Shown here piece after piece: positions 7,767 through 35,940 of a DNA stretch of 64,000 nucleotides (the stretch's first letter is position 1; each line of letters opens with the position of its first letter). The position numbers and the translations under genes are program-made. Below the pieces are notes generated by a model, which ran no database searches, was not told where the DNA came from, and saw only the letters and a list, made by a program, of their open reading frames with translations. Source of the DNA: Chloranthus sessilifolius (taxonomy: Eukaryota > Streptophyta > Magnoliopsida > Chloranthales > Chloranthaceae); the NCBI GenBank assembly GCA_021018995.1, contig CM037596.1, positions 88,915,184 to 88,979,183 on the forward strand, written 5' to 3'.

Positions 7767-7777
7767 CTTTATTTATA
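7767..7777 (-). promoter_or_regulatory. TATA box of the 3' LTR
   Basis: The minus strand reads TATAAATAAAG. The other LTR keeps TATAAATAGAG at the same place (28898-28908). Conservation in both LTRs supports a core promoter. Confidence 0.5.
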
Positions 7778-8142: not shown

Positions 8143-8297
8143 TCGCGCAACTAATAGTTGCGTCAGGCTTAAAAACTGGGAGAATTGGCCTGGCATAACT
8201 AATAGTTGCGCCAGGCAGAATTATCACTGGTGTAACTATTAGTAGTGTCAGGTAATTTTTGGGGAGAAATAGTCTGGCGCAACTAATAGTTGCGCCA
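8143..8297. repeat. Palindromic-repeat array 1 (3' LTR)
   Basis: Four units start at 8143, 8191, 8228 and 8275. The consensus is an 11-base arm TGGCGCAACTA, one A or T, then the exact reverse complement TAGTTGCGCCA. The unit at 8275-8297 is perfect. A fifth degraded half-unit lies at about 8055-8068, where the other LTR keeps a full unit (29192). The last unit is absent from the other LTR, so copy number differs between the two LTRs of one element. Confidence 0.85.
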
Positions 8298-8719
8298 AAT
8301 CCCTAGGGGGGCCCACGTGATTTTACTCTTATGCCCTCCGGGCTCGATTTGCCATATCTTTTGATGTATATCTCTAATTGGGGTGATTCTTAGACCGTTG
8401 GAAAGCTGACGACCTCTACTTTTCAATGGTATGAGATTTGATCATAGTAGAGGGCTGTAGTTAGTTTCAGTGCACCCCTCAACCATTTGCTTGATAAGGT
8501 TAGGTTTAGGTTTAGAACGGGTTCTAAGGGTCGGGATTGATTTCTAAAGGTTTGGGTCAGGTTCCTAAGGGATCTATGGTGATTCCTAAGGGTTTAGAAA
8601 GGTTCCTAAGGGTTCTAGGAGGGTTTCTAAAGGTTCCATACATGTCATCAAAAGCTTAAAATTGTACCTCTCTCGAAAGGTGTTTCAATTGGGCCTTGGG
8701 CCAAATTTGGATATCTACA

Positions 8720-8734
8720 GATGCCCCTCTTTGG
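8720..8734 (-). other. Polypurine tract of the Ogre-like element
   Basis: The minus strand reads CCAAAGAGGGGCATC directly before the TGTAGATATCC start of the 3' LTR. This is the expected place for second-strand priming. Confidence 0.7.
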
Positions 8735-10036
8735 TATTCGATCACAAATGATCAAATGCCAAAGAAAAAGAGACATCCGAAGAGGCCCAAGGCATTACTG
8801 ATGGGTTCGCTGCATTCAGAATGAAATTTAAACACCAAATGAGTAACACGGTGAGAAAACAAAAGCCCTAGGATGTCAGGCTAAACATTCGTTTCTCGAG
8901 GTAATCTGTTCTCAAGTGCTTAGCGACATTACTAGGCATAACCGAGATGGAATGAGTTGCGAACTCCCTATAGTCGGGAAAGATATTTACTTCTCAGGAT
9001 GATTTTGAAGGTATCTAATATTTAAAATTCATTCTGAATGCAACAACTTCGTGAGTAAAAGGGGGGGGATCGACTCACATTCAAAGATAAGCGCGAAGTA
9101 AGCATACGCAAGGCTCTACAGTTTGTGTTCAATCCTACGAGGCATTTGATAGCCCCATCTGACTTTTCGTGAGTGCCCCTGCTGAAAGCAGGGTTTGAGG
9201 TTTTTAGGCGAACCCATAGACCCTGAAGTTTATTTAGCATAACTGCCCAAGCGAAGTGAATAGATGTCACAACACTTTTTGGGAGTGCATGCCATTTTCG
9301 AAAGCATGCCTTAGATTAACATGGCCTAGAGCATTCAGCTTTGATTACCTTGAACAGATCCAACCAAATATTGGGGTATCTCCATGAAGGGATATCCAAT
9401 CCTTGTCTCTGCTGACAATGATCATAAACATTAATTAACTATGCATAATCATGCACCCATCAGGGGCAATAAGCAACAACAAAGGCGATGAAAGCCTCAA
9501 CTCGGACCCACTCGGGTATAATTTACGGGGACAAACGACCATCATACGGATACCCAGACGCATGGCATACACTTTACAGGGATACCGCTGCCCATACAGG
9601 TTTTAAGCCTGCAGAAAATAAAAAGGGAAATGAACCCTTCTGAATACATGGTTGCGCATAGTTTGATTGACACGTAATCTCATTCTCATCAGATTGGTCT
9701 CAACCAACGATTGACCTTTTCCAATGGAAAATCTGAAGCTTAAGACACTTAAGTTCACATGAATTCAAAATAAAATGCTCATCGCAAAGATTTAGCCGTG
9801 GAGTCGACTCGATCAAAACATTGACTGTTTGACCGGGACCGACACTGTTGCTCCTTCCTTAAAGTAGGATCCAAAAATCCGAGGCGAACCTCCGACTCAG
9901 GATTTTAGTATGGCACAACTGCATTGCGGATAAAATATTGACGTTTTACCGCTTTATACTTGGGCGTCTCTGTGGGGAATACAAATCTATTTTTTATTTT
10001 TCTATCATTTTATGCGATTTTTAAAATTTTTTAATT
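8735..10036. other. Non-coding region between 3' LTR and antisense gene
   Basis: About 1.3 kb with no convincing coding region. Short frames on both strands have no recognisable domain. It belongs to the 3' internal part of the Ogre-like element. Confidence 0.5.
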
Positions 10037-10130
10037 GTTATTTTATGTGATTTTTTGGAGTTTTGAAGTTATTATTTTATGTGATTTTTTAGAATTTTGA
10101 AGTTATTATTTTATGTGGATTTTTCTTGTG
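10037..10130. repeat. 35-bp tandem repeat
   Basis: About two and a half units built on TTATTTTATGTGATTTTTT followed by TTTTGAAG, with a period of 35 bp. It is AT-rich. Confidence 0.6.
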
Positions 10131-10352
10131 AATACTCCCGGCTTCTCTGTGGGGATTTTTTTTAGATTTTTGTTTATATTTTCTTGTGTAGGATCGGGGT
10201 GCTCATTGATCTCTCTTAGCAAGTTGAAGGATGATCGAAATGCTGCCTTGGGAGCACGTGCATCTGCCGGGAGTGACAAAACAAACAAAAAGAGTGGGGG
10301 GACCGGTCTTCCCATCTGGCCCGTACCAAGCCCAAGACTCGGCCTAAGTACT

Positions 10353-10471
10353 TGGCGCAACTAATAGTTGCGCCAGGCCACTAGGGGCCTCAAAATAGCC
10401 TGACATAACTAATAGTTGCGCCAAGCAAAAGGTGGGAAATATATTTCCTAGCGCAGCTATTAGTTGCGCCA
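10353..10471. repeat. Palindromic-repeat array 2
   Basis: Three 23-bp units start at 10353, 10401 and 10449, exactly 48 bp apart, with 25-bp spacers that differ from each other. The first unit is a perfect palindrome around one central base; the others have two or three changes. The array lies upstream of the first antisense gene. Confidence 0.88.
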
Positions 10472-10679
10472 AGCTTGGCTGGGGGGAATTTAAACAGCCC
10501 GAGTTCGGGCTAGGGGCTTTATTTTGAATTTTTCTCTCCCTCCTTCCTCTTTGAAACTAAAAATCGCCCCCCCTCCTTGAGTTCCTTTACATTGCCTCTA
10601 CGCGTGCCCCATTGTCGTTGCTTTGCTTGTGTGGATTGATCGTCGGATCACGCTAGATCAAAGACCACTTTTCTCTCTA

Positions 10680-11580
10680 AAGGTAACCATTAAAATCCCT
10701 TTTCTTTGATTTTTCTTTGATTTTTCTTGCTTTTTCTTGTAGATTTGATCACGATCTTGCATTCTTTGATGAGTATGATTTATTTATATGGTGTGTATGT
10801 TTATTGATGAAGTGAGGATGATTCTTCATGAACAATGCCTTATTTTGTTATTTCATGGATTTATTGGTGCCTAATATATATATTTTTTGTTGTTTTTATT
10901 TGTGTATATGGAAAGGGATTTTTTGGTTTATATTTTTTGCAAAGAATTTTTTTTTTTTGTTTTTATTAAAATAAAGCAAAGGATTTTTTTTTTGTTTGAT
11001 TTTTTTGATTGATTTTTTTACTTTTGTAAATAAAGGATTTTTTTTTATTTTGTTTTTATATTTGCAAAGTAAAGTGAAGAGCATTTTTTTGTTTGTGGTT
11101 TTTACTTTTTATTTTGACAAACAAAGTAAAGGATTATTATTTTACTTTGCAAAGAAAATTTGTTTTATTTTGTAAATAAAGGATTATTATTTTATTTTGA
11201 CAAACAAAAAAAAAATTTGTTTTTGGTTTTTTGGTTTTTAGGAACACAAAGAAATGGCTGTTTGTTTTTTCCTTGGGACCTAAGGAGAAGAGAAAGATTT
11301 TTTTGTTTATAAGCGTGATGATGATTTCTTTCTACTTTTTTTTGTTTTTTTTTTTGCTTTTGTTTTCCTAGACATAAAGGGGGGATTTTTTTGTTTTTCT
11401 AAGTGTAAAAGAAAGGCCTTTTTTATTATTTTTTTAGAAACATAAAAGAATGATTTTATTTGATTCTAACTTTCTTTATTTTCAAAGATAGGAAGGGGAA
11501 ATTTTATTTTTTTGTCATTTTTTGAAGAAAAGATTTTGCATTTTCAACCTAAAAGGGATCTCTTTTTTTTGTTTAGGTAT
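10680..11580. repeat. T-rich tract with AAAGGATTTTT motifs
   Basis: About 900 bp is dominated by T runs, interrupted by AAATAAAGGATT-like words. It has no coding capacity. It sits just upstream of the antisense gene and could be its 5' UTR or intron, but nothing decides this. Confidence 0.5.
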
Positions 11581-11691
11581 GTGTATCTCTCATTTCTGAA
11601 AATATGTGAAAAGAAAGGGGAAGGGTGAGCATACTTACCTCCCTTTTGTAGCATAGAATATCATGGCTCTTTATCATTAATCTGCTCTGAC

Positions 11692-13626
11692 GTGATTGCT
11701 TTTTGTTGCCCCAGAATGTCGGGTGAGGGTGAGCATATTCCCGAGGAGGGCCACAAGGAGGGGCCCAAGATTGTATACAGCCCGCGGGGGGAGCAGTTCA
11801 TCTGGGTAGATCGGAAAGTGGGGCTGTGGCTCCAGATGCAAGGCGAGGCCGCCCGAGTCGACCTCCTTCACCAACAGCATACCCACATTTCAAATTTCGG
11901 GATAGCGGGCAAGGTAAGAGAGAGGTTCAATTCATTTCCATTATGCAGTTTTTGTTTTGTCCCTGTGATCTGATGCACATTTTCTTGGGTGCAGGACCTA
12001 CCCAACATTGTATTCCGTTGCGGGTGGCTCGACTTCCAAGATATCTACCTCTATGTCCCTCCCGTAGTAAAGTCCTTCTGGCACAGGTGGGCTTCGGAGA
12101 ATTTCTATCTTGCCCCACCATGAGGGCCGACGCTACCTATCTGAAAGTCCTGATTGAATGATTTTGCCCCGAGACGATGACCTTTCACATGGCATATGCA
12201 GAGATGACTTTTACGCCCGTCGATTGGGCCATGATTATCGGCATCAGGATAGGGGGATTTGATATTTGATCTCGCGGTGTCGAGTCGAGAGGACATCATT
12301 CGATTGATTAGGGCCTATCCTCCTCACGGGCAGACACATGGCACCGAGGTCAAGATGTCTTGGCTGACCTCACTTTATACACCTGATGAGTTAGCGGATC
12401 TAGGTCAGCCGGACAGGCTGCTCTACATCACGCCAGAGCGAGTGATCATCCTAACCAGCATCACTCTCTTGGTCCTGCTCAATAAGACTCTTTTTACCAA
12501 CGTGAGCAGTGGTCGAGTCAGCCTATCCTTGCTGAGTGTGATGGACCACTGGGGTGATGTCCACAGGTATGACTGGGGAGGGGCAGGGTATGCTACTGAC
12601 CCGCTCTTATGCAATGCCCGCTTTTCAGGTATGGGGATATCATCACTTTCACCCTGGGCACCCACTTCTTTTCTCGGAGGTGATCACCTATCCCCTCAGC
12701 AACTAAAATCAGGCCCGACACCGCGATGTAGGTTTAAAGCACTTGGAGATGGGTCTGAGGTCCCAACTCGACTTGGTGGTTCCTGAGCAGGTAAAACTCT
12801 CTTTTAACTTTGTTTGTTCTTAGCTCAGAAATCTCCTTTTACTGATGTGCTACTACTTGGATTCTTTTTTTTGACTTGGGCAGATCCTCCCTGACCCGTA
12901 CCTTGCATCCCCCTTCTAGGACAGAGCAGTTGTAGGCACTTCCCGCCTATTTAACAATCACCGCGTCGTTATCTTCTATGGAGCATGGGCCAAATTCTAT
13001 TATCTGGGAGAGTGAGTGGTGCACCAATTCCAGGGTTATTATGCCATACCTGTAGACCCTCCGGCGGATGTTTGGTATCTCGTTGGCAGTATCAAGGAGC
13101 TTACCACGACCTTCTTCAATAATGGGCTTCGCATCCATGTTCTCCATGTGCTCGAGGACTATCATCTTTGGTACGAGTTCCTGTCGTACCGGTTTATCTT
13201 GCCGCGCTTTGTACCTAGTGCCAATTTTCTTGCATTTGGCGGCCCACTCAGTCAGGTAATTCTTCTTAGCTTGGATTAGTTCCCTTTATGCTTTAGTTCG
13301 GTCCTTCATTCCTCCTAAGCGAATCTTCATTCTGTTCATAGTTTGCTCCAGAGGATGATTCGGATGGGGAAGGCGGGCCGAGTGTAGCTAATATGTCAGG
13401 GGAAGATCCCTCCGGTGCTGGCCCTTCTGGTGTGGGTCCCTCGGGCGAGGGCTCTTCGGGTGCTGGTCCGTCAGGTACGTCACTTGCTGGTATCCCAAGT
13501 GACAATCCGCTCGTGGTCTATGGGACCTTCCGGCACCTGGATGACAGCTTCCTTTCGGGCCTCTACACGGAGGTGGATCAACAAGCGCGGTTTTCTGCTG
13601 AGGCGGCCCGTGCCCCTCCTCCTTAG
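11692..13626 (+). pseudogene. Antisense passenger gene 1, plant mobile domain-like
   Basis: This gene runs opposite to gag-pol. Exon 1 (MSGEGEHIPEEG from 11716) ends GGCAAG before GTAAGA at about 11912. The next exon follows GGTGCAG at about 11994 and encodes NIVFRCGWLDF. A block with ETMTFHMAYAEMTFTPVDWA near 12170-12230 resembles the plant mobile domain. It is preceded by a TGA where Trp is expected, and a frameshift lies near 12115. Further blocks (PDRLLYITPERV near 12410, then EDYHLWYEFLSYRF near 13160-13200) follow, the last ending CAG before GTAATT. A Gly/Ser/Pro-rich repeat closes the frame at 13626. Passenger antisense ORFs of this kind are known in Tat elements. Function is unknown. 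Confidence 0.6.
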
Positions 13627-13738
13627 GTGGTCCCATGGGTAATTCTTCTGATGGCTCAATCTCTCTCTATTTTGGCCTCCTTTTGCACATGACTTTAAGA
13701 TTGTCTTAATAATTGATGTTGTATCGTTCTGAACGTAG

Positions 13739-14030
13739 GACTTCAACTCGGCCATGGAATATGCGGAGTATCATCGTCATCTTGTAGAGCTTAGGGAGGT
13801 GGAGACAGTGAGTACCTTGCTTCTCTACTCTTATTTATTTCATTATCATTTGTCCCTTAACTGATCCTGACTCTTGACTTTGACTGTGCCTTGCAGTGTG
13901 CCATTGCTAAGGAGTCGCGTTCTTTGCTCAGTAGGATCTTGCAGGTGTGGTCCAGGGTGGGGGACATTCGGACCTTCCAGAGCTCCTCTTGCAGTCGTAA
14001 GAAATCAATTGGCACAAGCAAGGAATAGGC
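13739..14030 (+). pseudogene. C-terminal exons of antisense gene 1
   Basis: Two short coding blocks follow: DFNSAMEYAEYHRHLVEL from 13739 and AKESRSLLSRILQVW from about 13905. They are separated by an intron-like stretch that starts near GTGAGTACC and ends TTGCAG. They continue the exon style of the upstream gene and end at a stop near 14027. The content is helical and unrecognised. Confidence 0.4.
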
Positions 14031-14395
14031 TTTTAGTTTTTGTTTTGAAAACTCAGTACTCTTTGGAATTTGATTTGGATTTGTTTAATCATTTTGGGGA
14101 TGGTTGATGTGATACTTTGGATCATTATCTTTGAAAAATATTTTTAGTATTTCTGCTTTGATTTTATGCCATGATCTCTTTGCATCAAACCTATTTCTCT
14201 AGAGGATGTTTTTGCCCAAAATGTTCTCAGAAAGTGACTCCTTGGGCATATGCTTTGATGTAGGATCAGTCCTGCATATAAATAAACAAAATAATTGCCA
14301 AACTATTAGTGAAAGGAAGTGTGTGAAAAAAACTAAAAGGGGTGTAAGTCCCCACAGCTAGGTCTCGGGATGCCTGAAGAGGGCTGACTATAGTG

Positions 14396-14562
14396 TGGCG
14401 AAACTATTAGTTGCACCAGGTTGAAATACCAGAAAATATGTACTAGTGCAACTATTAGTTGCGCCAGGCATAAATGGGGACCAAAATGTGTTGGCGCAAC
14501 TAATAGTTGTGCCAGGCTCAACCTGGGGGAGAAAAACACTAGCGTAACTAATAGCTGCGTCC
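14396..14562. repeat. Palindromic-repeat array 3
   Basis: Four 23-bp units start at 14396, 14444, 14492 and 14540, exactly 48 bp apart. Spacers are 25 bp and differ in sequence. Each unit departs from the consensus by one to four bases, mostly C/T or G/A, which fits cytosine deamination. The array separates the two antisense genes. Confidence 0.88.
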
Positions 14563-14707
14563 TGTTTAACCTGGGGAGCAGTGGGTCCTTATATAATCGA
14601 GTTAGTCTAAAAATCACTTCATTTTGTTTAACTTGGCCCTTTTGACCGATTCTTTTTGCTCTTGCTTTTCCAAGGCGGGCCCATCACCATATATCAATTT
14701 ATGTCCT

Positions 14708-16250
14708 CTCAGAAGATCTTTGTACGTTCATGGACCCGCTTTCTAACCCTCCCTTACGTGGAGGGCCTGGAGCCAATTTACCCCCTTCCTTGGGCTTGGG
14801 GCCCAAATTTCTAATACTTGGTTTGGGAGCTTGAATGAGAGTGAGCACGCTGACTTGGAGCGCCTTGGGCTATCTCGCCTTCCTTCATTTCTAGAGGTTC
14901 CTCCATAGTGGGAACTCTTTTTTACTGCCGCTTCATTTTGGGATGTGACTTCCCATGTATTCCGTTTTGGGAAGCGGGTGCTAACCCCAATCCTTGAGGA
15001 GCTATCCAATCTGTCTGGCCTGAAGTTTCACAGGGGCCTTGCAAGAGTCACGCCTCGGCCGGGCTACTCCAAATCCGTTCACCTTACTCTTAGTTTGAAG
15101 AAACTCGAGTATGAGAAAAGTCTCATTGGGGAGCCCACAAGGTGTTTGCTAAAATTCCTCAAAGAACTTTCTATGATGAAAGCCTCCGAAGATTGTCGGT
15201 TAGGAATATTTTCAACGTGAAAGCTCTAGCACTTGGTCTCATCTCTGAAATCCTCTTCTTTACTGGGGGAGAGCTTCTCGTTGGCAATTTGTGACATTTT
15301 GACGGAGCTGGAGGCAGGCTGATCCATGATGCATTTGGTGCATTCCAAGCTATATCTAGGCCTTGATTCATTTGCTTTGAGCAAGGTGGAGGGACTTCGG
15401 GGGTGCCCTTCGTTGCTTCAGGTCTGGTTGGGTTAGCACCTCGCTATCTTGGGGCATGTGCCCAGCTTTTATATTGCTCGAGGTGAGGCGGCTCAGTGCT
15501 TTCTAGGTAGGTGTCATTTACTTTCGATGGGCGATGTGTCCACTCTGAAACATTGGTTGACCGATGCCGAGCTGACATGGAGGCTTCCTTGGTTGGACCG
15601 GACCTTCCCAATAGTTTGCTCTAAAGACCATGAGGGCATCACCCTCCTAGGACTGACTGGCAACACCTTTAACTTCCCATTCCAAGTGTTGCGTCAGTTC
15701 GGCTGCCCTCAGTAAGTGCCTTGTGAGGCCAAACCCCCTTTATGTGATTTGATATTTTCTAGGGGGTCCTCTGGAGACATAGATCGGATTGCTGCTCTTT
15801 GGGAGGTGCGTCAGTCGACGCTGATGTTTCAGATCGAGCAGGGAGATTCGGTTCAGGTTTCTCCTGAGTATGGGGCCTAGCTATTGACTGAGTGGCCTGT
15901 TGCTGATGGTCCAGATTCATTAGAGATCATTGACACTAGAGGCCCCTGGCCAAAGAAAGTGACGGTACTCCGAGCCTGCATCGAGCTACTGGTGGATGAG
16001 AAGAGGGTCCTGCAAGAACTTTTGGCACATGAAAAGGTTAGAGCAGAAATAGCAGAGAGCGAGGTCCTCCATTTGAAGGGATCACTGAGCATCGCTTTTA
16101 GAGCCGCCGACTCTTCTCGGAAGAGGTATAAGAGCCTGCATGGTTGCTGGCTGACTGAGCGGAATGTCTGAGAAGATGACCTTCAGGCTGAGATTAGCAC
16201 ATTTAAGCGTGAGCTGGGCCGCTAACTCCTTCCTGCATACTGAACTTTTT
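14708..16250 (+). pseudogene. Antisense passenger gene 2
   Basis: This is a second decayed gene on the plus strand. Readable blocks are FWDVTSHVFRFGKRVLTP (about 14937-14990), LEYEKSLIGEPT (near 15107-15142), WLTDAELTWRLPWLD (near 15553-15597), ITLLGLTGNTFNFPFQVLRQFG (about 15640-15705) and a charged coiled-coil tail (LVDEKRVLQELLAHEKVRAE, near 15990-16050). The spacing of these blocks resembles the uncharacterised plant family found as a retroelement passenger (DUF7745-like, from memory and not checked). Frameshifts and stops (near 15220, 15714 and 15880) break it. Function is unknown. Confidence 0.5.
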
Positions 16251-16478
16251 GCACAGATCAGATACATGAAAAACGGGCATAAAACTTCCTTTACAGATAC
16301 ACACATTTTTAGTATACATATTTTCTTTATGTTTTTATTTTTGTTATTATTTGTAAAAAGGGAAACCATGTTAGTCATCACACTGGCTATTTTTTAGGAT
16401 GTGGTGTAAGCGGTGCATTTTGTAAATGAAAGGTAGTTAATTATATACATCTACATAGACTTTTGGGTCTTTTGGTTT

Positions 16479-16483
<5 letters not shown>

Positions 16484-16545
<62 letters not shown>
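16484..16545. repeat. (AT)n microsatellite
   Basis: About 31 uninterrupted AT dinucleotides. It lies between the antisense genes and the integrase end. Confidence 0.97.
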
Positions 16546-16549
<4 letters not shown>

Positions 16550-16885
16550 GCGGTGCCTTAATCACCTTGTGAAACCCTAGGTCCTCTTTTGAGCATGGTC
16601 GAACCCCTTTGATATGGTCGGGCTTGAGTGAGTTTTAGCAGTTTCACCAAGGCCGGAACGTCAATCCCTTCGGATTGAGTCAAACCTTTCTCCTTACCTT
16701 GAGTCATACGTTTGACAAAGCAATTCTGAAGACACACTTGGTTGGGACCCGATTTGAACTAGCATGAGCGGCCCAGAAAAGGGGATCAGGGAGAGTAACC
16801 AAAAGGGCTCCTCAAACATTAATCTTCTCAATTAGTCCAAACCTTTCATTTCTTTTTTTTTCTTCCTCCTTTTTTTTTTATTACT

Positions 16886-17030
16886 CGTGGCGTCCTTTCG
16901 GGTTTTCACCACGTCCATGGGTTTAGCTCTCTTACCCCAAGCGCCCTTTCGGGTTTTTACCTGGTCCTCACAAACTCGTTGTTTTTTACCCGTAGTGCTC
17001 TTTCGGGTTTTCACCACGTCCATCTTGCTT
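16886..17030. repeat. 54-bp tandem repeat, three units
   Basis: Three units, each with CTTTCGGGTTTT followed by ACC and GTCC, recur about every 54 bp. The function is not visible. Confidence 0.65.
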
Positions 17031-17652
17031 TGAGCTTGTATTTTTATTTTATTTGTTTATTTAATTTTATTTATTTTTTCATTTCTTTTTTTTTTAAACC
17101 CACGACATAGACGTCGATTCCGTCATAGTCGGCTAGATGGGGTTCTGGTGTCGTCCCACAACTTGGCTTGTATTGACTTAACAGATATTATGACTGCTTG
17201 TAAACCTAAAAGAGGGCTTTCTTCGGGGTGTAGCTTGGCCAGGGATTAGGTTAAGATTTGAAGGTATGCTAAGCTAAAAGGGTTTCCTTGATACGACTTA
17301 AGTTTTCTCAACATACTTTCTTCCTTGGGGGGTTTTACTATACATGCCCCATGATTCTTCTATATTTTTTAATTCTTTTTGCTCCATTTAGGCAATCACT
17401 TTTTGAGGTTTTGCTTTTCCAATTTTTTTAGAATTTGATAGTAACTTTACTTCCCTTTTTTATGTATGTACGCACATTTTTTTTGGGGAAGGGGGTTATT
17501 GAAAGAAAGGCCCAGGCTCAAATGGGGTAGCAAAGGATATCATCATTTTTAGGGATGCTTTTTGGCTATTGTGCATGGAATGATAGCCTCTTTTGAGTAA
17601 TTCTTAAGTAGTCACACATCTGTTTCACCAATACTTACCTTATCGTGATAGA

Positions 17653-18755
17653 TTAAGAGTAGAACCATCGGATGTATCCAGCGTTGATGGGCTCAGGAAG
17701 ATGATCTCCGTCCATGGTGGTGAGGTGGATGGCGTATCCCGACAGTACTTATCGAATGACGTAAGGTCCTTCCTAGTTCGGCATGAACTTTCCTCTCGAA
17801 TCAGCATGGAGGGATGGAAAGATCTTCTTCAGCACAGTATCTCCTACCTTTAGATCTCAACCACGGACACATTTATTGTAAGCGCATGCGATTCGCTCCT
17901 GGTACACCTGAGTGTGACACAAGGCTAGGAGTCTCTTCTCATCCAATAGATTCAATTTTTCAAAGCGAAATCTCTCTTTGCTTTAGGTAAGCCTGATTCC
18001 ATAAGGATTCAGAGCGAGGGTACTTCAACCTCAACTAGTAGGACGGCCTCAGTTCCATACACAAGGGAGAATGGTGTTGCCCCTGTAGCGGTATGGATTG
18101 ACATTCTGTAGGCCCACAAAGAAAATGGTAGCATTTTGCTCCAATCTCGATAAGTGATGACCATTTTCTCGAGGATGCGGATGACCGTCTTGTTCGCAGC
18201 TTCTACGGCTCCATTAGTTTGAGGCCGATAAGGTGACGAGAGATGGTGCTTGATTTTGTATTGCTCGAAAAAGGCTCGGATGCGCTTATTCGCAAAGTTT
18301 GTACCGTTGTTCTTGATGATATCTTTGGGGACTCCAAATCGGCACACAATATTATTCTTAAGGAATTTCTCGACGTGACTGGCCGTGATGTTGGTATATG
18401 ACGCCGCTTCCACTCACTTGGTGAAGTATTCAATGGCGACAAGGATGAACCGATGCTCGTTCGATGCTTTCAAATGAATCATTCCGACAACGTCAAGGCC
18501 CCACGTGGTAAATGGCCAAGGAGTGGTCATGCAGTGTAGTTCGATGGCAAGAGCGTGTATTAGACTGGAGTGTTCCTGACACTTGTAGCATTTCTGCACA
18601 TGTTTGCAGCAATCTGATTCCATAGTGGTCCAAAAGTATCCCTGCCGCAGAATTTTCTTAGCAAGCATTTGACTACTGACGTGGGCTCCGCATACTCCCT
18701 CATGGATCTCCTTCATGATACTGATCGCTTCACCCTCTGTAAGGCACCTTAGCAA
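17653..18755 (-). pseudogene. int: Integrase of the Ogre-like element
   Basis: This is the DDE integrase that would insert the cDNA. The zinc-binding region shows HEGVCGAH and CYKCQ (near 18700-18580). The first catalytic Asp is in WGLDVVG (about 18502). The second, normally in a DNGTNF context, reads NNGTNF (about 18300), so the Asp is changed to Asn. The Glu lies in GAVEAANK (about 18205). A TGA at 18414-18416 interrupts FTK and VEAAS where Trp is usual. The C-terminal tail (EGPYVIR, then DGDHLPEPINA) ends with a TAA at 17653-17655 and has two further stops. It follows the archaeal-type RNase H and ends the pol region. Confidence 0.85.
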
Positions 18756-19432: not shown

Positions 19433-19499
19433 AGGATGTCCTCATCAGGGAACTCAGTTCTCAAAGGCTCATAATCTAGCAAAGGATTGTCGGCAAGAT

Positions 19500-20858
19500 G
19501 ATCGGCAAGTGCTTGCCCTTTAATTGACTTCTGAGTGATATACGTGATGTCAAACTCAGACAATAATAATTGCCATCGTGCAGTCCGCCCAGTGAGAGCT
19601 GGCTTCTAGAAAAGGTGTTTCAGCAGGTCCATTCGGGCCAAAAGTAGAATGGCGTAAGATAGCAAGTAATGGCGGAGCCTCTGAGTAGCCCATACAAGAG
19701 CCAGGCATGCTTTCTCCAGATGAGAATAGCGCATTTCATAATCAGTAAACTTCTTGCTTAGATAGTAAATGGCCTGCTCTCTTCTTCCCGTTTCATCATG
19801 CTACCCTAAAACACATCCCATCGAAACTTCCTTCGTGGAGAGATACATTAAGAGTGGTCTCCCCGACTCAGGTGGTACAAAAACAGGTGGATTAAGGCGG
19901 TAGCTTTTAATTTTATTGAACGCTGCTTGACAGTCATCGTTCCATTCAACGGTCGAGTTCTTCCTTAGTAGCTTGAAGATCGGCATGCAGATTGGAGTTA
20001 GTTGTGCAATAAACTGATTGATATATTGTATTCTGCCCAGGAACCCTCTGACTTCTTTCTCTATAGATGGTGGTGGCATCTCAGTGATAGCTTTGACTTT
20101 ATCTGGGTCGACCTTGATCCCTCTCCTGCTGCCGATGAACCCTAATAGCTTTCCAGACATAGCACTAAATGCGCACTTCTGTGGGTTCAGACGTAACCTG
20201 TATTTTCTCAGCCTCTTAAACAATTTCTAGAGATTTACGAGATGGTCATCTTGCTCCAGTGACTTGGCTATCATATCATCAACAGACACTTTAATCTCTC
20301 GGTGCATTATGTCGTGAAACAGTGCGGTCATAGCTCTCTGGTATGTTGCATCGGCATTCTTTAGGCCAAACGGCATGACTTGATAGCAAAAGGTTCCCCA
20401 TGGAGTAATAAACGTTGTCTTCTCCCGATCTGCCTCTGCCATCTTTATCTGATTATATCCTAAGAATCTGTCCATAAAAGAAAGCATCTCCTGCTTAGCA
20501 GTGTTATCGACCAAGATGTCGATGTGTGGCAATGGGAAATCGTCCTTTGGGCTTGCTCTATTCAAATTATGGAAATCGATGCACATGCGGACCTTTCCAT
20601 TTTTTTTGGTACAAGCACAATATTGGCTAGCCACTATAGGTATTTAGATACCATGAGAAACCCTGCATCGTATTGCTTGACGACCTCATCTTTGACTTTC
20701 AACATCCATTTGGATCGGAGAGGTCTCAACTTCTGCTTAACCGACTTCATATGAGGGTAGAGAGGCAGCTCATGCTCGACCAAATCGATGTCTAGACCAG
20801 GCATGTCCTTATAGGACGAAGCAAAAATGTCTTGGTATGACAGAAGGAATTCAATCAT
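19500..20858 (-). pseudogene. pol: Reverse transcriptase and RNase H of the Ogre-like element
   Basis: This is the polymerase that would copy the element's RNA. Motifs in order are KVRMCIDFHNLNRASPKDDFPLP (20590-20520), GYNQIKMA (about 20460), TPWGTFCYQVMPFGLKNA (near 20400-20350), and the active site, which reads VSVDDMIAKS (about 20285) where YVDD is expected; the Tyr is lost. The thumb and connection follow (LGFIGSRRGI, FLGRIQYINQFI). The RNase H part starts near 19860. Stops at about 20227, 19800 and 20640 break the frame. It ends in ADHLADNPL, the tether to the archaeal-type RNase H. Confidence 0.88.
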
Positions 20859-20945
20859 GCATTTTCTTTCTTCGGGAGACAGTGATGTTCCGATCTTGGT
20901 TATTCTGGGAATCTCCTCAGTCCCTAGATTGATATCCTCTGTCTC

Positions 20946-21206
20946 TTAGACAACGGGGGTAAGGCCATGCTCAAAGTCGGCAATCCGGTCAAGGAGTTCA
21001 TTAGGGAGCTCCTCCAAGGGGACATCCTGGTCCAGACTCGTAACACCTACCTCTTCTTGTATTTCTATAGGAAAAGGGTCGATTTTATGTGGGACGGGTA
21101 TTTCGATTAAGGCATCATTTTGTGGGACTTTTTCTAGAATTTTAAATGACGATATTTTTAGACTTTGGATTTTGTCAATGTTTTTAGGATTTTGTATTTT
21201 TTCCAT
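20946..21206 (-). pseudogene. Protease-RT linker fragment
   Basis: An open frame of about 86 codons rich in Glu, Ile and Pro (EEVGVTSLDQDVPLEELP). It ends just before the RT region. Acidic linkers occur at this place in Tat polyproteins. No domain is recognised. Confidence 0.45.
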
Positions 21207-21933
21207 GTTTTTGAGATTTTTGTTTTCTTCGGATACGGACCCTTGGCAAGGCGGGTTACTATATATACAAGGTATTGCCTACCAAGGGCTTATGTCACTT
21301 TTTATTGGTTATTTTTTTGGGGGGAAACAGGTGCCAAACTTTAGTCCACTCCCTGCTTCCAGGGTTTGGGGCAAAGATGCCCAGCTGCCTACTCGTGCGG
21401 CCGCTCCTTTACATGTTGGGATAGAGGGTGCTGACTGATATGGCTTATTGGAGTCAGCTTCCATCATGTTGATCCCCATTTTGTCTGAGATGATGTCCTC
21501 AAATAATAACTCAGTTTTGTGGTGATTTACCACAGGGGGAGTTTTTTTAGATAGCCATCGTTCCTTGAAGAGGGACAATGTAGCCAAATCTATTTCCAGG
21601 TTGGGAAGGGAGATCTGGGAATTGGTGGGATGTATTGGGGTTGTGGGTTTGTGTGGGGTCAAATGGGTTACCCCATTTCAATCGATCTTTATGACCCTAG
21701 CGCTGATAAAGGATTCCTTGATGTGCGACCTAGGGAGAGGTTTCTCTTCTATGTTGATTCCTTGAGCTCTTACAGCTGCAGCGACCCCTGGCTTTTTCTT
21801 TGGCCTCTTGGACCTCTTCCTCTGTGGGCTTGTATCCCAGCCCGAATCTAACCTTCTACCCCTTAGCAACAACTGACTCTCTTCTGCCTTGTAATCTGGG
21901 CCCGAGCCCTCGGCCTTTCTGATAGCCCCACTT

Positions 21934-23217
21934 TTAGAGCATAGCCACCGCCGCTATCATACCGCCTCCTATTTTAAGCATGATGCCCTCAATGGGCTCC
22001 ACGAGTATCGCTAACACCTCATATTCAAAACTGTGGAGGTTGACATCCTCAGTGGTGTGCGGTATATCCAACACATTGGGTTTTTCGACGCTATTGGCGG
22101 CTTTTTCTTTCTCGCTGTGCCCCTCACCAATGATTGTAATAATTTTGTGCGCAGACGCAAACTTGAGTTTTTGGTGCAAGGTGGAAGATATGGCTCCGAC
22201 CTCGTGCAGCCACGGGCGCCCCAACAATAGATTAAATGAAGATTTGATATCCATGACTTGAAACAAGATGAAAAAGGTCATTGGCCCTATCAATAGCTCA
22301 AGATCAACTTCTCTCATTATTTCTCTCCTGGTATTGTCAAACCCTCTTGCGCTAGTTCTAGTGGGCCTCAGCATGCATGGATCGAACCCGATCTTAGTGG
22401 AAGTTCTTAACGGGCATATATTATCAATTAAAACTAGGAGAATGACCATATTTTCATACTCAACGGTTATATTTAATGACTTGGAGTGGCTACACCCTTC
22501 TTCAGGTAAATCAGCATCAGAGAATGAAATGGCATTCAAAGCCATCACTTGCCCAATTATCTGATTGACTTCATCTGGGCTAACTTGGAGTGATACATGC
22601 GCATTTTTTAATGCCCCCATTAAGTCTTGAAAATGGAGTGGGGATGTCATCAATAGATCCCAGACGGTTATATGGGCAAGCATTCTTCTCAGTTGAGTCT
22701 CTAGTATATGTTCCCGACTCATTTTTTCGAAGGGGTTCACAGTGCTGCCTTTCTTCCCCTCTGATTGGGCTTGTGCTGCTGCTGGCGCTTCTGGCTGCTT
22801 TGATATCCTCCTAGACCGTGTGATAAAGTCCACTGACCCTTCTCTACTGCTATTGCCGGTATTGACGTTTGTTTGCTCGTAGCTTAGCGGGACCTGATGA
22901 GGATCATATGTTGGTCCTGAGAGCTGGAAAGGTATGACTGCTGGTACTTGAGGTACTTGCACTGTCAGCTCAGGAGGTGTGGGCAACACCTGATTTATTT
23001 TGGTGGTAGCGGGTTGGGTGGAAAAATTAGGCCATATAGGGGTGGTGAAGCTTGAGGTTAGTGGCATTAAAGGGAAGGAGGTAAAAGTAGGCCATTGATA
23101 GCTGGTGGGCGCTGGTGGGAGATGGGGGGCTGATGGGCCGTTAGGTAATTGACCGGGGTGGTGGAGTTCGCAGGCGAAACTTGGGGTGATGGGATGGGCG
23201 CAAGCCATTGATAACAT
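21934..23217 (-). pseudogene. pro: gag-pro region with aspartic protease, active site deleted
   Basis: A long open frame. Residues 1-130 are proline-rich. The middle part has EKMSREHILETQLRRMLAH and DEVNQIIGQVMALNAISFSD. The protease follows: LVLIDN runs straight into CPLRTS (about 22418), so the residues normally between the catalytic Asp and the CPL block, including the catalytic-loop Gly, are absent. Downstream landmarks remain (TRTSARGFDNTRREIMREVDL, FFILFQVMDI, LLGRPWLHEVGA, LHQKLKF). The frame is open although the enzyme cannot work as written. Upstream it adjoins gag. Confidence 0.75.
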
Positions 23218-23400
23218 ACGGGTGCGGGTGTGGGATTGGGGCCTGATGGCTTATTGGGTAATTTATTGGGGCGGTGGAGTTTGCCGGTAGTTGAACTGGG
23301 GGAAATGGGGTGAGCATAAGCCATTGATAACTAGAGGGTGTGGGCGTAGGATTGGGGGCCGGATGGCTTATTGGGTAATTCAAGGGGTTGGTGGAATATG
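23090..23400. repeat. About 115-bp tandem repeat in the gag-pro linker
   Basis: Nearly three units share GCCATTGATA and GATGGCTTATTGGGTAAT-like words. On the minus strand each encodes a proline-rich block with the word YQWL or INGL. It lengthens the linker between gag and protease. Confidence 0.65.
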
Positions 23401-23710
23401 GCTGATACACATTTATTTATACGTAATTTATGGGAGTGGATGGTGGAAAATAGGCCCTAAGATCTAGGGGTTTGGCTTGTCGCATAGGAGTGGGAAAGTA
23501 ATCCGCCAGATTCAAGGGTTCAATCACCCCAATGGTACTTTCTTCTCGGTCTTGCTACCTTGGGATCACAAAATTTTCTCTATTACTGATGTAATCAGAA
23601 GGGTCAAATTCATACTCCTTTTCAATTTCCTCTACCATCCCTATGGTGGGTCTGGGACTTGCTATTCCGGTAGGATGTGGTAGTAAAGGCACCTGATAAA
23701 TATTCGCATA

Positions 23711-24777
23711 CTAGTTTGCTTGGGTGGGTGCAGAGGGAATGATCTTCCCAGCATCGATTAAGTCTTGGATCGCGTGCTTCAATGGGAAGTAGCGATTAGT
23801 TGGGTGACCCAGACCCTGATGGAAATTGCAATGTGTATTGGAGTCAAAATTATATGGAATCGGATTGGGAGGAGGTCGCGGTTGGAGCGCAGTTACTAAT
23901 CCCTTTTCAATTAATAAAGGTAAAAGTACACTCAAGGATTGCCCCAAGGGCGTAAAGACTCGATCATAACGGGCCATCCTCTCTGGGGTCATTTGTGTCC
24001 CCTACCCATTCCCTACTCTTTGTACTGGCCATGTCCTAATGGGAGCTGGTTGCGCTGCTTTAAACTGGAAGGGGGCTACACTGTTATTGTTGGGCTAGGT
24101 GTTTGTAACATTTTGCACCTCTGCCCCTGTCCTCCTATCGTTCTTCTACTCAATAAACCTCCTAACCCCACTAGGTCCCCCTGAAGCATTCTTACTCAAC
24201 CGCTCTTCCCTAATGGCATCCTCACAGAGGTTGGCGTTCCTTACCAAATCAGTAAAACTGGATTGCTATTGGTATACAAGAAAATCGAAAATCACTGGTA
24301 GAGTGTTCTTTGAAATCATCTCTATATGCTCATCATCTGGTATTCTATTTCTGACTTGAGCGGTCAATGCTCTCCTACGCCCCAAATAGTCGTCGAAGGT
24401 CTCGTTGGGATTCTGTTTCAAACGGTCCAAATCAGACTTGCGCGGTTCAATATCAGTATTGTAGACATACTGTTCCTGGAACAAATGCATCAAATCCTTC
24501 CATGTCTTCATCATGGATGGTTCAAGAGATGTGAAGCACACCACCTCAAGGCTGGTCCGGTCAAACTTTTCTGAAAGACTTTTATTAGAAGTCTCTCGTC
24601 CCCCCCATACTGGGACATATCCCCACAATAGGACTTAAGGTGTGCAATCGGGTTGCCCGTGCCATTGTTCTTGTCGAATACTAGCATTTTAAATTTGGGT
24701 GGCAGGGGGACCTCAGCAAACAAATACAAATCCGTGAAATCTGTGGACTGGATTTCAGCACCACGTATCTTTAACAA
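23711..24777 (-). pseudogene. gag: gag of the Ogre-like element
   Basis: This is the capsid precursor. The N-terminal capsid half shows PPKFKMLVFDKNNGTGNP and HLKSYCGDM (near 24690-24620). After a frameshift near 24540 the second half reads TWKDLMHLFQEQYVYN and DYLGRRRALTAQVR (near 24500-24350). The nucleocapsid-like segment has CNFHQGLGHPTNRY (near 23835-23790), where the final Cys of the CxxH/GH/C-type knuckle is Tyr. It is followed by FPLKHAIQDLIDAGKI, typical of Tat gag. The frame is broken into at least three pieces. Confidence 0.8.
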
Positions 24778-25005
24778 TTTTTTCTAGATTTTGTCTAGTT
24801 GCTCCCTTAACTGTTCCGATTCTTTGGACATGGGGATCATTTTTTCAACAGTCGGCCGAGACTCGCTCTGTGCTATTGGGGGTGGGATTGCTACCGGTGG
24901 AGGATTAATAGAGGTCACTGTCCCGACATAGGCACCACTATTTCTGATCTCGTCCTCCTCATACTGCTAATCTATGTAGGGTGCAGTGAGGATGGTGTTC
25001 TCATA

Positions 25006-26703
25006 CTATTGTTGCATGGACTGCATGGGATTGGATTGGATGTGGGTTGGGTGAGCCCCTTGAATGTCTGGGAGGTGTTGTGGGGTGATGGGATGAGTAG
25101 TGGTTTGGTTTAGGGGTGGGGCCTGATGGGGCCATTGGATATGGGAGAAGGTTTGGATTTCGTCTTGGGGTATGGGGCCATGGGAAAATTGGGTCTGAGG
25201 TATGGCATGGGTTTGACCCAGTTGTGAAGGTTGGGGGTGAGTGAAGTTTTGGGGGTATTGTGGTGGGTAAGAGGTTTTGGCTTGGGCTATGGGCCTGAGG
25301 TAGGTTTGGGCCATAAGGCCTTGATCAAGTTGGGTTTGGGCAAAGGGCATGGGATTTGGGGGATCTTGGCCTATTAGGCCTTGATGGGTATGACCCATTG
25401 GGCTTTGGAGGGCTTAGGCCATGGGCCATTGGTGGGTATGGGCCTAGGCCAGATGGGTTTGGGCTTTGGGCCCTTGGGGTATGTGGGCCTGACCCACTAG
25501 GTTTTGAGGGGTATGGGCCATGGGCCCTTGGAGGGTTTGGGCCATGGGCCCTAGATGGGTATGGGCCATGGGCCTTTGGAGGGTTTGGGACATGGGCCCT
25601 TGGGTAAAGGTTTTGGCAATGGGCCCTTGAGGTATGTGGGCCTGGCCCACTGGGTTTTGAGGGGTATGGGCCATGGGCCATTTGTGGGTTTGGGCCATGG
25701 GCTCTTCATGATTTTGGGCCATGGGCCCTTGCTGGTTTTGGTCCATGGGCCCTTGATGGGTTTGGGCCATGGGCCCTTGGTATGGGTGATAGGGTGTTGG
25801 GCCATTGGGCCTTGGAGATCATGGGTGGTGGGGTTTTGGGCCAATGGGCCTTGGGGCGTATGGGAGATGGGGTTTTGGATGGTATGAATTATGGGGGGTT
25901 GATGGGGGTCATGGGGGAGTGAAGCATGGAGGTTGGCTAAGGTATGAGATGGGTTCATGGATGTGTGGTGTGGATGAGTGGAGGTGTTTTTGGAAGCCTT
26001 CTATAAGGAGTAGGCTTGGAACATCTCCTCCATCATGGTGATGGAAGAAGGATTGGATGTGGGTGGTGGATTTAAGGGATGATTGGGTATAGATGGGGTG
26101 GATGTGGAGGGAAAATTGGGCATGGTAAGTGATGGGACATGGGATGGATTGAAGGAATGGGGTGAGGCATTGGCAAAGGGGGATGGGTTGGGGATTTTTA
26201 AGGGTGATGGAGGATAAAGTATGGGTGTTTGGGAAAAATCGGGCATGGCCCCAGTAAAAATGGGCATGACCTAGGTAGATGGGGGGACTTGTGGGGGGTC
26301 GGATAGGGTGGAGGTGACATAAGTAAAGGATGGTGGATTGGGTCTATATGGGGAAGATGGAAAATGGGGCATGGGTGCGGATGTGGAAATTTGGGTTGGG
26401 TTCATCATGGATGGGGGTGGGAAATGTGTTGGGTTTTGAGGGGATGTGGATGGAATGGGTGGTTGGTTTGGCATTGATATGGGGGGACAAGTGGCTTGAG
26501 AAAAATATGGGGAATGAGGGGGTTGATTTTGGATGTTTTGGGAAGTGGTGGTTGGGAAAATGGGGGCGCCAAATAGGCCGATAGGTAGAAGGGGATAGCG
26601 TGATGGGGATGGACGTGAAGGCTTCTTCCGAATTGGAGTGGGTTGGAGAATGTGGCGGGGATGAGTCGAGATCGGCATAAGCCGAGTACACTACCCATGA
26701 CAT
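25006..26703 (-). pseudogene. Proline-rich leader ORFs upstream of gag
   Basis: A series of minus-strand frames (26703-26271, 26267-26001, 25958-25006) is very rich in Pro, Ser, Thr, His and Gln (PPSTYRP, NQPPIPSTSP). They are separated by single stops or shifts, so they look like one decayed gene. Ogre elements are known to carry an extra ORF before gag. This region sits in that position, but I see no diagnostic domain. The low complexity makes function unassignable. Confidence 0.45.
25400..25870. repeat. 24-bp coding minisatellite
   Basis: Around 15 to 20 units of GGGCCATGGGCC followed by about 12 bases. On the minus strand they encode an eight-residue repeat, consensus GPMAQTHQ. A larger duplicated block includes VGQAHIPQGP twice. 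Units carry the palindrome GGCCCATGGGCC, so this coding repeat also has local dyad symmetry. Confidence 0.8.
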
Positions 26704-27184
26704 TCTATGGGAACGGGTTGGGTATGGGTGCCTTGGATAAGGCCGAAAAATTTTCCTCCTTCTTCCCCTACAGGAGGATGGAGGGCAAGATGATGCCGTT
26801 GTGTCGGCACCACAAAGGTTCTATTTTTTTATGTTTTCTTATTTTTTATTTTTTTTAAATTTTTTTTTCAAAACAAAGGTTATGAGGCCTAGGAATTCCC
26901 TTCTCGGGTGGCTTTCGCACCCTAATTTAGAACCCGTGGCGACGACTCTGATATGCTTCGAAAGAATCAAAGGAATATCTTTAATCTATTGAAGGTACGA
27001 AAATCGAGGCAGATAACCCGATCCCCCAAAATGAGCCAAAAAGAAGTTGCCTTTTTTTGACCGGCGGGGGAGAATTGGGTGTCGGAGATGGCGGGGCCCA
27101 ATCAGAGGTACTAAACACACTAATCGGGGGACTCGGGATGTGGAAAAGGCCACAGATTCAGGCAGCTGCTGTCCATAACAGGCT

Positions 27185-27350
27185 TGGCACAAGTAATACA
27201 TGCGCCAAGTCAAAATGCTCCCCTTTTTACACTGGCGCAACTATTAGTTGCGCCAAGGTAAAAGTGGTTGGGATTAAAGCTAGCGCAACTATTAGCTGCA
27301 CCAGTTATAATTTTGAGATTTTTGCACTAGCGCAACTAATACTTGCGCTA
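27185..27350. repeat. Palindromic-repeat array 4 (5' leader)
   Basis: Four units start at 27185, 27233, 27281 and 27328, with a period of 48, 48 and 47 bp. The second is a perfect palindrome with a central T. The array lies about 0.8 kb inside the 5' LTR, in the untranslated leader of the element's own RNA. Confidence 0.88.
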
Positions 27351-27858
27351 GGCTAAAATAGGGCTCCAGATGTATATGATAGCAGCAAACAACACCCGAA
27401 ATGAGTCTCTTTTTTTGGTTTTTGTGGAAGCTAGGCTTCCGGGAACTGATTGTTTATATGTGATCGTTTCCCTCCTCACCGAAGCCTAAAGGTTTAAGTC
27501 CAGTATAACTCGCTAGTGTGCTCCCCAAGGGTTTTAAGCTTTGGAATGGGAACCCACCCGATATACCTCCGGCGCAAGCCCCTTCTCAGATACTAGGTGG
27601 GCTGAGACTTTTCTGGATCATCACCACTAGGGGCTGCCGCCATACTAAGACCCGGGTGGTTGTATGTGTGCCTAAACTTAATCGTCTTTTGAAAATCTAT
27701 CCCGTAAAAATAAATTAATTAAGCTCCCTAACTTGGTTCAATTTTTATTTTTCAAAACAGTTTATTTTTTATGAAAGTTTTCTTTAGTCCAAAAGTCAGA
27801 GGTGATGACCCCGTGCCGCCACTACGGGCCGGCGTCTACTGTCGAAATATGTTTGCAC

Positions 27859-28065
27859 AAGTAGGCCCGCCAATCGGCTAAGGCACTTTAAATGATGAAA
27901 AATTAAAGAAATTAAAAGACAATATTTAAGTAGGCCCGCCAATCGGCTAAGGCACCTAAAATGACGTAAATATAAGGAAAAATAAAAATAATGCGCAAGT
28001 AAGCCCGCAGATTGGTTAAGGCATGTAAATGACGAAAAAGTAAATGACGTAATCGGAGGGGTGAG
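27859..28065. repeat. 69-bp tandem repeat, three units
   Basis: Units beginning AAGTAGGCCCGCCAATCGG start at 27859, 27928 and 27997; the third is diverged (AAGTAAGCCCGCAGATTGG). Each is followed by an AT-rich tail. It lies in the leader between the PBS and array 4. Confidence 0.8.
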
Positions 28066-28156
28066 TAAAAAAAAAAAAAAATAATAGCAATAAAGAGGTT
28101 AGTAAAATAAATAATAAATAAATGGGCCAAGTTCAAGGGAAAGCTCTACTAGCTAC

Positions 28157-28174
28157 TCCCCAGCAGAGTCGCCA
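28157..28174 (-). other. Primer binding site of the Ogre-like element
   Basis: The minus strand reads TGGCGACTCTGCTGGGGA, two bases after the 5' LTR. The truncated second Tat element has TGGCGATCTCGATGGGACA at the matching place. This is the tRNA-primer form usual in Tat/Ogre elements, and it fixes the orientation. Confidence 0.75.
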
Positions 28175-28900
28175 TTTGTGCAACAGTGGGATTTGTGATG
28201 ATCCCGTCGTGGTGATGCACTCGCTTGCAAAAAAAATAGAGTCGCCACCCAGAGCTTTTGGTGTCCCACGATACATATATCATTTTTATAAACACCGAAG
28301 TGTCACAAATATGACTCTGAATCCCGTCCACACCAAAGGCTCTTGGGTAGGGGGTTCGGTTATCGATCGAGAAGGTGTTAGGCACTCGATCAACCCGCTT
28401 AATGCGGTCTCTACTAATGGCCGAAATAAAAATAAAATAAAATAAAATAAAATAGCTTCCTCTTACCCAAATGGGCCTTAAATCCTATTTGTGTCCCTCC
28501 ATTCCTACCAAAAATTCAGCGGCGTAATGGCACAAATGGGAGGATGGGAGGAGCCAAAGAAGAGATAGGAGAAGAAAGGGGAGAGCCGGAGCCCTCGGGC
28601 CCTTGTAGCACTGTAGAGAAGCCTTGCTTGGCTTGCTTTGATGAGCTTTTGAAGGCTTGTATGATATGGAATGGGGTTCTAACTCCTAAGGCTTGAAGCT
28701 AAGAGGTAGAGAAGGAAGGCTAGGGGATCACATATACCTAACCTAGAGGCTTTTCATGAAAGGCAAGGGTGGGGAAGAGGTTTTTGAATTCTGGTTTTTG
28801 TATGGGAAGTGCGCACCAAAGGGAAAAAGATCTTCTTACTTTAAGCTCTTTCTCTCTTAGGTAAAAATTCTCAACCCCTAAACCAAAGGGTGGGGGTCTC

Positions 28901-28908
28901 TATTTATA
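28901..28908 (-). promoter_or_regulatory. TATA box of the 5' LTR
   Basis: The minus strand reads TATAAATAGAG, at the same place as in the 3' LTR. It is the likely start region for the element's transcript. Confidence 0.5.
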
Positions 28909-29191
28909 AGAAATGTGTGGATTAGGAGATCACTTAGGAGCTAAATGGGTTTAGCAATTAGGTAATCTCAAATCTAAAGTTTTCTAGGGTTTTTGGAGCC
29001 TTGAAATGTGTGAGAAAGTCCTCCAATGGTGGATGATGGGGTGAGGCTTTAAGCCACTTGAAGGATTGCAAATAGATAGGGAATGGTTGCAACAGAATTA
29101 GCAAAACACATTCCAAAGGTTAAGGTGGTCAACAAGTCAAACCCCAATCACGATTTTTAGGACAAAATCCAGAGGTTACTGTTCATATGCC

Positions 29192-29396
29192 TGGTACAAC
29201 TAATAGTTGCGCCAGGCAAATGTACAGTAAAACAGTTTTAAACAGTGCCTGGAAGTTGGTTCGCAAGGGTGGGTCCCACCTTTAACCTTGGCGCAACTAA
29301 TAGTTGCACCAGACTTAAAATCTGAGAGAATTGGCCTGGCGTAACTAATAGTTGCGCCAGGCAAAATTATCACTGGCGCAACTATTAGTTGCACCA
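29192..29396. repeat. Palindromic-repeat array 5 (5' LTR)
   Basis: Units start at 29192, 29289, 29337 and 29374. The unit at 29337 extends on both sides to GCCTGGC and GCCAGGC, giving 14-base arms with one mismatch. Compared with array 1 it lacks the last unit but keeps a full first unit, so units have been gained or lost since insertion. Confidence 0.85.
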
Positions 29397-35930: not shown

Positions 35931-35940
35931 AAAACTTTAT

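Follow-up and report, generated by a model that had tools for sequence, protein, structure and literature searches.

Several viruses and mobile elements encode a regulator that acts on repeated sites within their own promoters or ends, including the foamy virus protein Tas, the Tax protein of human T-lymphotropic virus (HTLV) with its 21-bp repeats, and TNPA of the transposon Spm with its subterminal repeats. As far as the available parts of the published accounts describe it, the VANC/VANDAL system of Arabidopsis relies on a protein encoded by the element that reads tandem, family-specific motifs (YAGTATTAY for VANC21; AGTTGTCC/AGTTGTAC for VANC6) and removes silencing, with both binding and loss of methylation demonstrated (PMC5735166, PMC10398659). 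Among retrotransposons, the accessible sections report antisense TRP28 open reading frames (ORFs) in Retand elements, for which DNA binding and a regulatory role have been suggested (PMC11963269), and place a plant mobile domain (PMD) in 57% of Ogre elements and recurrently in plant Gypsy elements (PMC6317226, PMC9289625). Host proteins with the same domain, MAIN and MAIL1, are linked in the portions at hand with transcription, with the silencing of transposons and with a motif in promoters, the DOWN motif of the MORC1 promoter (CATGCAGTTT), with direct binding left open (PMC7156037, PMC9899485). Here, we describe a decayed Ogre-like Ty3/gypsy retrotransposon from Chloranthus sessilifolius, located in a 64-kb stretch of contig CM037596.1 (positions 88,915,184 to 88,979,183; hereafter the window), which carries arrays of a 23-bp palindrome in its long terminal repeats (LTRs), in its leader and upstream of two decayed antisense genes that lie between pol and the 3' LTR on the plus strand. 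On balance, we read these arrays as sites, specific to each family, at which a dimeric regulator binds; the regulator is probably a PMD protein encoded by the element itself, in an arrangement that would resemble VANC/VANDAL, its closest precedent.

A motif scan of the window identified 19 palindrome units at up to five mismatches, all of them inside the one 22.8-kb minus-strand element and confined to exactly the five intervals listed in a preliminary description of the sequence (Table 1). Sixteen sites had three or fewer mismatches, compared with a mean of 0.00 across 100 dinucleotide-preserving shuffles, and the closest matches elsewhere in the window had 7 and 8 mismatches, in agreement with the earlier statement that it holds no further copy. 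Unit starts are exactly 48 bp apart in the arrays upstream of antisense genes 1 and 2, as first described, and 37, 47, 48 and 97 bp apart in the others. Five arrays had been counted within one Ogre-like element; a single element does contain them all, but the distinct places number four, because the two LTR arrays represent one array inherited by each LTR. Likewise, the spacers had been called unconserved, and they do change faster than the palindromes, yet they are weakly related to one another: pairwise identity among the 14 window spacers is 37%, compared with 26% for shuffled bases, and none of 2000 shuffles reached 37%. A common spacer orientation is weakly indicated, since the 39% identity among the nine internal spacers drops just to 34% when one member of every pair is turned into its reverse complement. 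Post-insertion decay probably explains much of the variation in the arms, because C>T or G>A accounts for 28 of the 39 arm changes in the window, the pattern left when methylated DNA decays.

Across the genome (2.17 Gb in 32 contigs), the search with three mismatches allowed, which had been suggested as a check, revealed an abundant motif: 58,286 places matched, compared with none for a reversed-pattern control. We sampled sister copies as twenty 10-kb stretches around exact sites, all on contig C1, and each contained a diverged relative of the element with matched segments roughly 67-90% identical. Sister arrays occupy the LTR, gene-1, gene-2 and leader places wherever a stretch includes those places, so that the positions originally noted (LTRs, leader and the surroundings of the antisense genes) are kept. 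Within 21 loci, 145 of 146 units lie at most 150 bp from element sequence, and the remaining one (L016:6561) belongs to a gene-2 array as its outer unit; because these loci were chosen for exact sites, they offer a biased measure of sites outside elements and bear only in part on the suggested comparison of counts inside and outside such elements. The phasing also persists, with 66 of 99 sister-copy steps below 220 bp measuring 47 or 48 bp and 13 measuring 37 or 38 bp. In 14 gene-2 regions, pairwise identity reached 86% in palindrome columns, compared with 58% in spacers, 69% upstream and 76% in the first 100 bp downstream, which upholds the earlier picture of conserved units set among more variable spacers.

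Related families carry different palindromes in the same position. A DUF7745 model gave 117 genome matches among the 118 places scored from 4408 candidates, and upstream regions were taken from 35 of the 117 places, drawn from the high-scoring end and not at random, together with that of the window; motif classes were assigned ahead of tree building. Phasing upstream of gene 2 is mostly 47-48 bp across these families, in which we distinguished at least six palindromes: class A (TGGCGCAACTA-N-TAGTTGCGCCA; 14 gene-2 upstream regions), class B (TGGCGCATGTA-N-TACATGCGCCA; four), class C (GGGCGTATATA-N-TATATACGCCC; four, one of them weak), class D (TAGCGTGTATA-N-TATACACGCTA; five, plus three weak), class E (TTGCGTATAT-NNN-ATATACGCAA; two) and class F (TGGCGTGTGTA-N-TACACACGCCA; two), with none found in two further regions. 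All classes but E, whose centre differs, share the half-site frame TA-nnnn-CGC-nn from the centre outward, and a difference of two bases separates the A half-site from that of B, B from F, and F from D. At up to two mismatches, the genome holds 10,483 C-like and 5,619 B sites, compared with none for the reversed controls. In a tree of gene 2, A and C each form a single clade (support 99/94 and 100/100), and B lineages fall just outside A, followed by F and D, under mostly moderate support and a midpoint root; the class labels require 10 changes on this tree, compared with 21 when shuffled. All 138 units found at up to four mismatches in 20 A-seeded loci belong to class A. A family-C element was assembled as collinear stretches on contig C14: in this first C element, units of class C occupy the LTR (0, 0, 2 and 3 mismatches), gene 1 (1 and 1) and gene 2 (0, 1, 1 and 1), with degenerate C- or E-like units of 4 to 5 mismatches in its leader, and a second has C units in the LTR (2, 5 and 3 mismatches) and at gene 2 (2, 3, 3 and 2), with just a 6-mismatch match at gene 1.

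The arrays stand beside putative promoters. In the window, the gene-2 array is followed some 25 bp later by CCTTATATAATCGAG and then by gene 2 on the plus strand. A strict TATA pattern occurs within 70 bp after the gene-2 array at 19 of 34 loci and in 11.7% of random segments, and at 14 of these 19 loci the offset is +25 to +30; the pattern is found in families A, B and C, though three of the 19 loci (L028, L036 and L068) have it inside a degenerate further unit and are best left out of the count. At several D, E and F loci, CCTATAAGG or CTTTTAAGCCC occurs near the same spot, a feature noticed post hoc. A TTTAA box follows the gene-1 array in all eight aligned copies, a figure given without a chance control, and gene 1 begins about 1.2 kb past the ATTTAAA box of the gene-1 array. 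On the sense strand, the U3 array lies some 280-490 bp upstream of the LTR box CTTATAAATA.

The gene behind the gene-2 array encodes a PMD/DUF7745 protein. An intact family-A relative (499 amino acids) matches PMD at 1.9e-17 and DUF7745 at 2e-13, and the PMD matches of the family-C and family-B relatives stand at 1.6e-16 and 4.6e-14, respectively. Pieces of the decayed window gene 2 gave weak DUF7745 matches (E 0.041 and 0.12), and a gene-1 piece at 12162-12263 matched PMD at 3.6e-4, with a score of 20.3 bits under the cut-off of 34.9. TRP28 (PF04195) had no match in the scanned window pieces, which are only pieces of decayed genes, or in the intact gene-2 relatives. Over 471 residues, the A relative shares 57% identity with the C relative, and their changes number 165, 119 and 266 at codon positions 1, 2 and 3, a pattern that indicates a protein under constraint. 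In a protein database search, the 103-residue window piece of gene 2 had no match, and the 499-residue relative recovered one protein among the 8000 best-sharing candidates, which were the ones scored. We do not claim a C-terminal coiled coil in gene 2, as the heptad count is weak (11 of 31 a/d positions versus 29 of 109).

The data establish the placement of the arrays, their phasing, a motif conserved above its spacers, the different motifs that related families carry in one frame at one position, the concerted change in one C element and the PMD coding of intact gene-2 relatives; protein binding, dimerisation, the PMD protein as binder and the sign of the regulation are inferred. That the arrays act as DNA-level cis sites is very probable; that their candidate binder is encoded by the element is a more guarded claim, to which we incline, and a PMD protein is the leading candidate given that the motif varies by family in a constant frame and at constant places. 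Under the proposed mechanism, the simplest one, each palindrome would comprise two inverted half-sites read by a dimeric, sequence-specific protein, and the arrays would serve as promoter operators in the LTR U3 and ahead of both antisense genes, plus the leader array. One protein could then govern sense and antisense transcription, because arrays are placed at both kinds of promoter. The reader would most likely be the PMD protein that antisense gene 2 encodes, perhaps together with that of gene 1; it would recognise sites of its own family alone, and would either keep the promoters active or unsilenced or limit them, with activation or anti-silencing rather than repression put forward tentatively and with some doubt. 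Families would separate as inner half-site bases change together with the protein, possibly stepwise in the order D, F, B, A, in which case the A/B hybrid sites of leaders would be survivors of such a step.

Several observations weigh against this reading. Agreement between motif and gene-2 kinship is expected from shared descent alone, and the presence of DUF7745 in every sampled family is not independent evidence, because the families were found through DUF7745. In the gene-2 tree, none of the classes B, D and F forms a single clade, and E does so in only 16% of bootstrap trees; given this, the moderate support and the midpoint root, the order D, F, B, A is suggestive, not shown. One B element (L046, C3:169246800-169250300, with L037) has B units at gene 2 (1 and 0 mismatches), A and B units at gene 1 and A or A/B units in the LTR, and is either a recombinant or a motif in transition, and a D-element stretch covering the LTR end only (L047) yielded no unit. 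The whole stretch downstream of the gene-2 array (some 330 bp, including the gene start) is 82% identical, near the 86% of the palindromes, and no TATA-like box adjoins the leader array in 10 aligned copies. For the protein, the predicted structure of the sole database relative has a mean pLDDT (predicted local distance difference test) of 36, was left unused and gives no DNA-binding fold, and a search for solved structures of gene-2 relatives returned none.

Alternatively, the arrays could be enhancers made of host transcription-factor sites, with different families recruiting different host factors, which we regard as unlikely and yet as the main rival. The arrays are indeed close to promoters, and some palindrome copies form TTTGGCGC, which we take to resemble an E2F site. 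Nevertheless, a diversifying reader better explains why one position holds at least six motifs built on a single frame within one genome, and all 146 units in the 21 loci are element-linked, though those loci were chosen for exact sites.

It is considerably less probable that the arrays are selfish or neutral repeats, functionless and merely propagated and made uniform through slippage and template switching in reverse transcription. Unit numbers do differ between copies, and tandem arrays are usual in the related Retand elements according to the available text of PMC11963269, but in the window the spacers of different places are nearly unrelated (37% identical) while the palindromes match (82%), the placement beside promoters is fixed, and inner and outer leader units retain different sequences.

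A role at the RNA level, in which hairpins or duplexes between units would serve small-RNA production, packaging or dimerisation, is improbable on the same order and a little more so. The leader array would be part of the genomic RNA, and folding the arrays, as had been advised, gave strong structures (z -5.3 to -9.4 for four segments); however, any palindrome folds in this way, so that the folds are explained by palindromy itself. The preliminary description had taken the units for selected hairpins, a reading that is not supported by the criterion set there, an excess of compensatory changes: among 143 units in 20 sister loci, we counted 8 arm pairs changed on both sides, where independent arms would yield 8.5, and 6 double changes that restore Watson-Crick pairing, where 5.8 would be expected. 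The window alone has 2 double changes against 1.8; the power of these tests is limited by the decay-type C>T or G>A changes that dominate window variation. Such a lack of compensatory excess is what half-sites read independently would produce, as expected if the arrays are operators. Moreover, outer leader units are conserved A/B or A/x hybrids in one orientation, and inner ones are mostly A/A (L008-L011, L013, L018, L020, L022 and L023); on the strand of the antisense genes, the inner right half is changed and the inner left unchanged in 16 of 16 outer units from these nine sister loci, and in the window leader one outer unit has both halves changed. Half-sites of B or x type make up 14 of 66 in leaders versus 2 of 220 elsewhere (Fisher P 3e-8, the copies being related). 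This asymmetry breaks an RNA stem, yet suits a DNA half-site. If the TATA-like boxes are used, the gene-1 and gene-2 arrays also fall outside those transcripts, as they lie upstream of the boxes. Finally, a role in DNA structure (cruciform extrusion, nucleosome placement or boundary function) would suit the perfect dyads and regular 47-48-bp steps, but needs neither family-specific sequence in a fixed frame nor hybrid units, and we consider it remote.

The element itself combines the Ogre traits of Ty3/gypsy coding domains, great length and, in intact gene-2 relatives, a PMD extra ORF. Its gag, reverse transcriptase (RT) and integrase are recognised by Pfam matches (PF03732, PF00078 and PF00665), all on the minus strand, its LTRs are 87% identical, and the 5-bp target duplication was read directly at its flanks, which match an empty-site paralog lacking the element (flanks 6677-7048 and 29815-29976; paralog at window 31-559). 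A putative sequence resembling a primer-binding site (PBS), TGGCGACTCTGCTGGGG, follows the LTR, and the leader near this site holds a 69-bp tandem repeat of 2.8 copies (27854-28044). Between leader and gag, proline-rich minus-strand frames enclose a repeat of 24-bp period rich in GGGCCATGGGC (25379-25781). Rfam 15 gave no match at gathering score in window positions 7000-29900, no tRNA gene was found in the window, the exact palindrome was in no IMG/VR or GTDB contig, and the RT of the element had no match in IMG/VR.

Table 1. Features of the window, with positions counted from its first nucleotide.
Feature	Position	Strand	Details
Ogre-like Ty3/gypsy element, decayed copy	7049..29814	-	22,766 bp; target site duplication GTTCA; LTR pair and Pfam matches
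3' LTR (left LTR of the window)	7049..8720	-	
3' LTR copy of U3 array	8143..8297		units at 8143, 8191, 8228, 8275
Gene-1 array	10353..10471		units at 10353, 10401, 10449
ATTTAAA box after gene-1 array	10487..10493	+	place approximate
Antisense gene 1, decayed	11716..14030	+	probable PMD protein; probably with introns; ends approximate
Gene-2 array	14396..14562		units at 14396, 14444, 14492, 14540
TATA-like box TTATATAA	14589..14596	+	about 27 bp after gene-2 array
Antisense gene 2, decayed	14730..16230	+	PMD/DUF7745 protein; ends approximate
Leader array	27185..27350		units at 27185, 27233, 27281, 27328; outer two with variant half-sites
5' LTR (right LTR of the window)	28177..29814	-	
LTR TATA-like box CTTATAAATA	28901..28910	-	read in window copy
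5' LTR U3 array	29192..29396		units at 29192, 29289, 29337, 29374

Elsewhere, a 4.8-kb sequence flanks the element in two copies that are 89% identical (558-5306 and 42072-46897), a direct pair at 35567-36799 and 39356-40598 is 92% identical and possibly represents the LTRs of another element, and a tandem repeat scan found a 208-bp unit twice with 100% matches at 53396-53808.

Ogre and Retand elements carry antisense PMD and TRP28 genes for which we know of no function, and the PMD genes described here are paired with a testable target, the family-specific palindrome at element promoters. If the PMD protein reads this palindrome, PMD would gain a biochemical activity and the antisense genes a reason for being kept, and LTR retrotransposons too would have evolved private self-recognition codes. 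At least six motif classes in one genome would then form a natural series for mapping which residue reads which base. As a broader and more speculative proposal, which we hold somewhat short of probable, the PMD proteins of giant Ogre-like retrotransposons may be dimeric, sequence-specific regulators of the elements' own promoters, both sense and antisense, with specificity diversified in one genome via concerted operator change at unlinked places. If true, a VANC-like self-recognition code would exist in a retroelement, and PMD, a domain of host silencing regulators, would be a DNA-reading domain.

Antisense ORFs of the TRP28 or PMD kind have already been described, and so, separately, have tandem arrays (PMC11963269, PMC6317226, PMC9289625). 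In the accessible portions of the open-licence literature, we found no account of palindromic operator arrays or of family-wise motif change in these elements; half-arm strings gave matches that are unrelated, judged by title only, and PBS strings and DUF7745 gave no mention. The palindromes are not the DOWN motif of MAIN and MAIL1, as CATGCAGTTT, in the form given by the available parts of those accounts, is unlike them. Compared with Tas, Tax and TNPA, other protein families are involved, and those systems are not known to have a palindrome set shared by sense and antisense promoters. With Ogre elements the likeness is the PMD extra ORF, for which a target motif or function is absent from the sections available (PMC6317226, PMC9289625). 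Retand elements likewise have antisense ORFs between pol and the 3' LTR and tandem arrays in that region, but here the genes are PMD genes and one palindrome class also occupies LTR and leader, whereas the available text of PMC11963269 mentions no palindromes. As in VANDALs, to the extent that the accessible accounts describe them, short tandem motifs lie in non-coding regions, are specific to the family (with the mosaic L046/L037 as the exception) and change together as units. In contrast to VANDALs, which are Mutator-like DNA transposons, the carrier is an LTR retrotransposon, the sites are 23-bp palindromes at four promoter-linked places, and the candidate reader is a PMD/DUF7745 protein.

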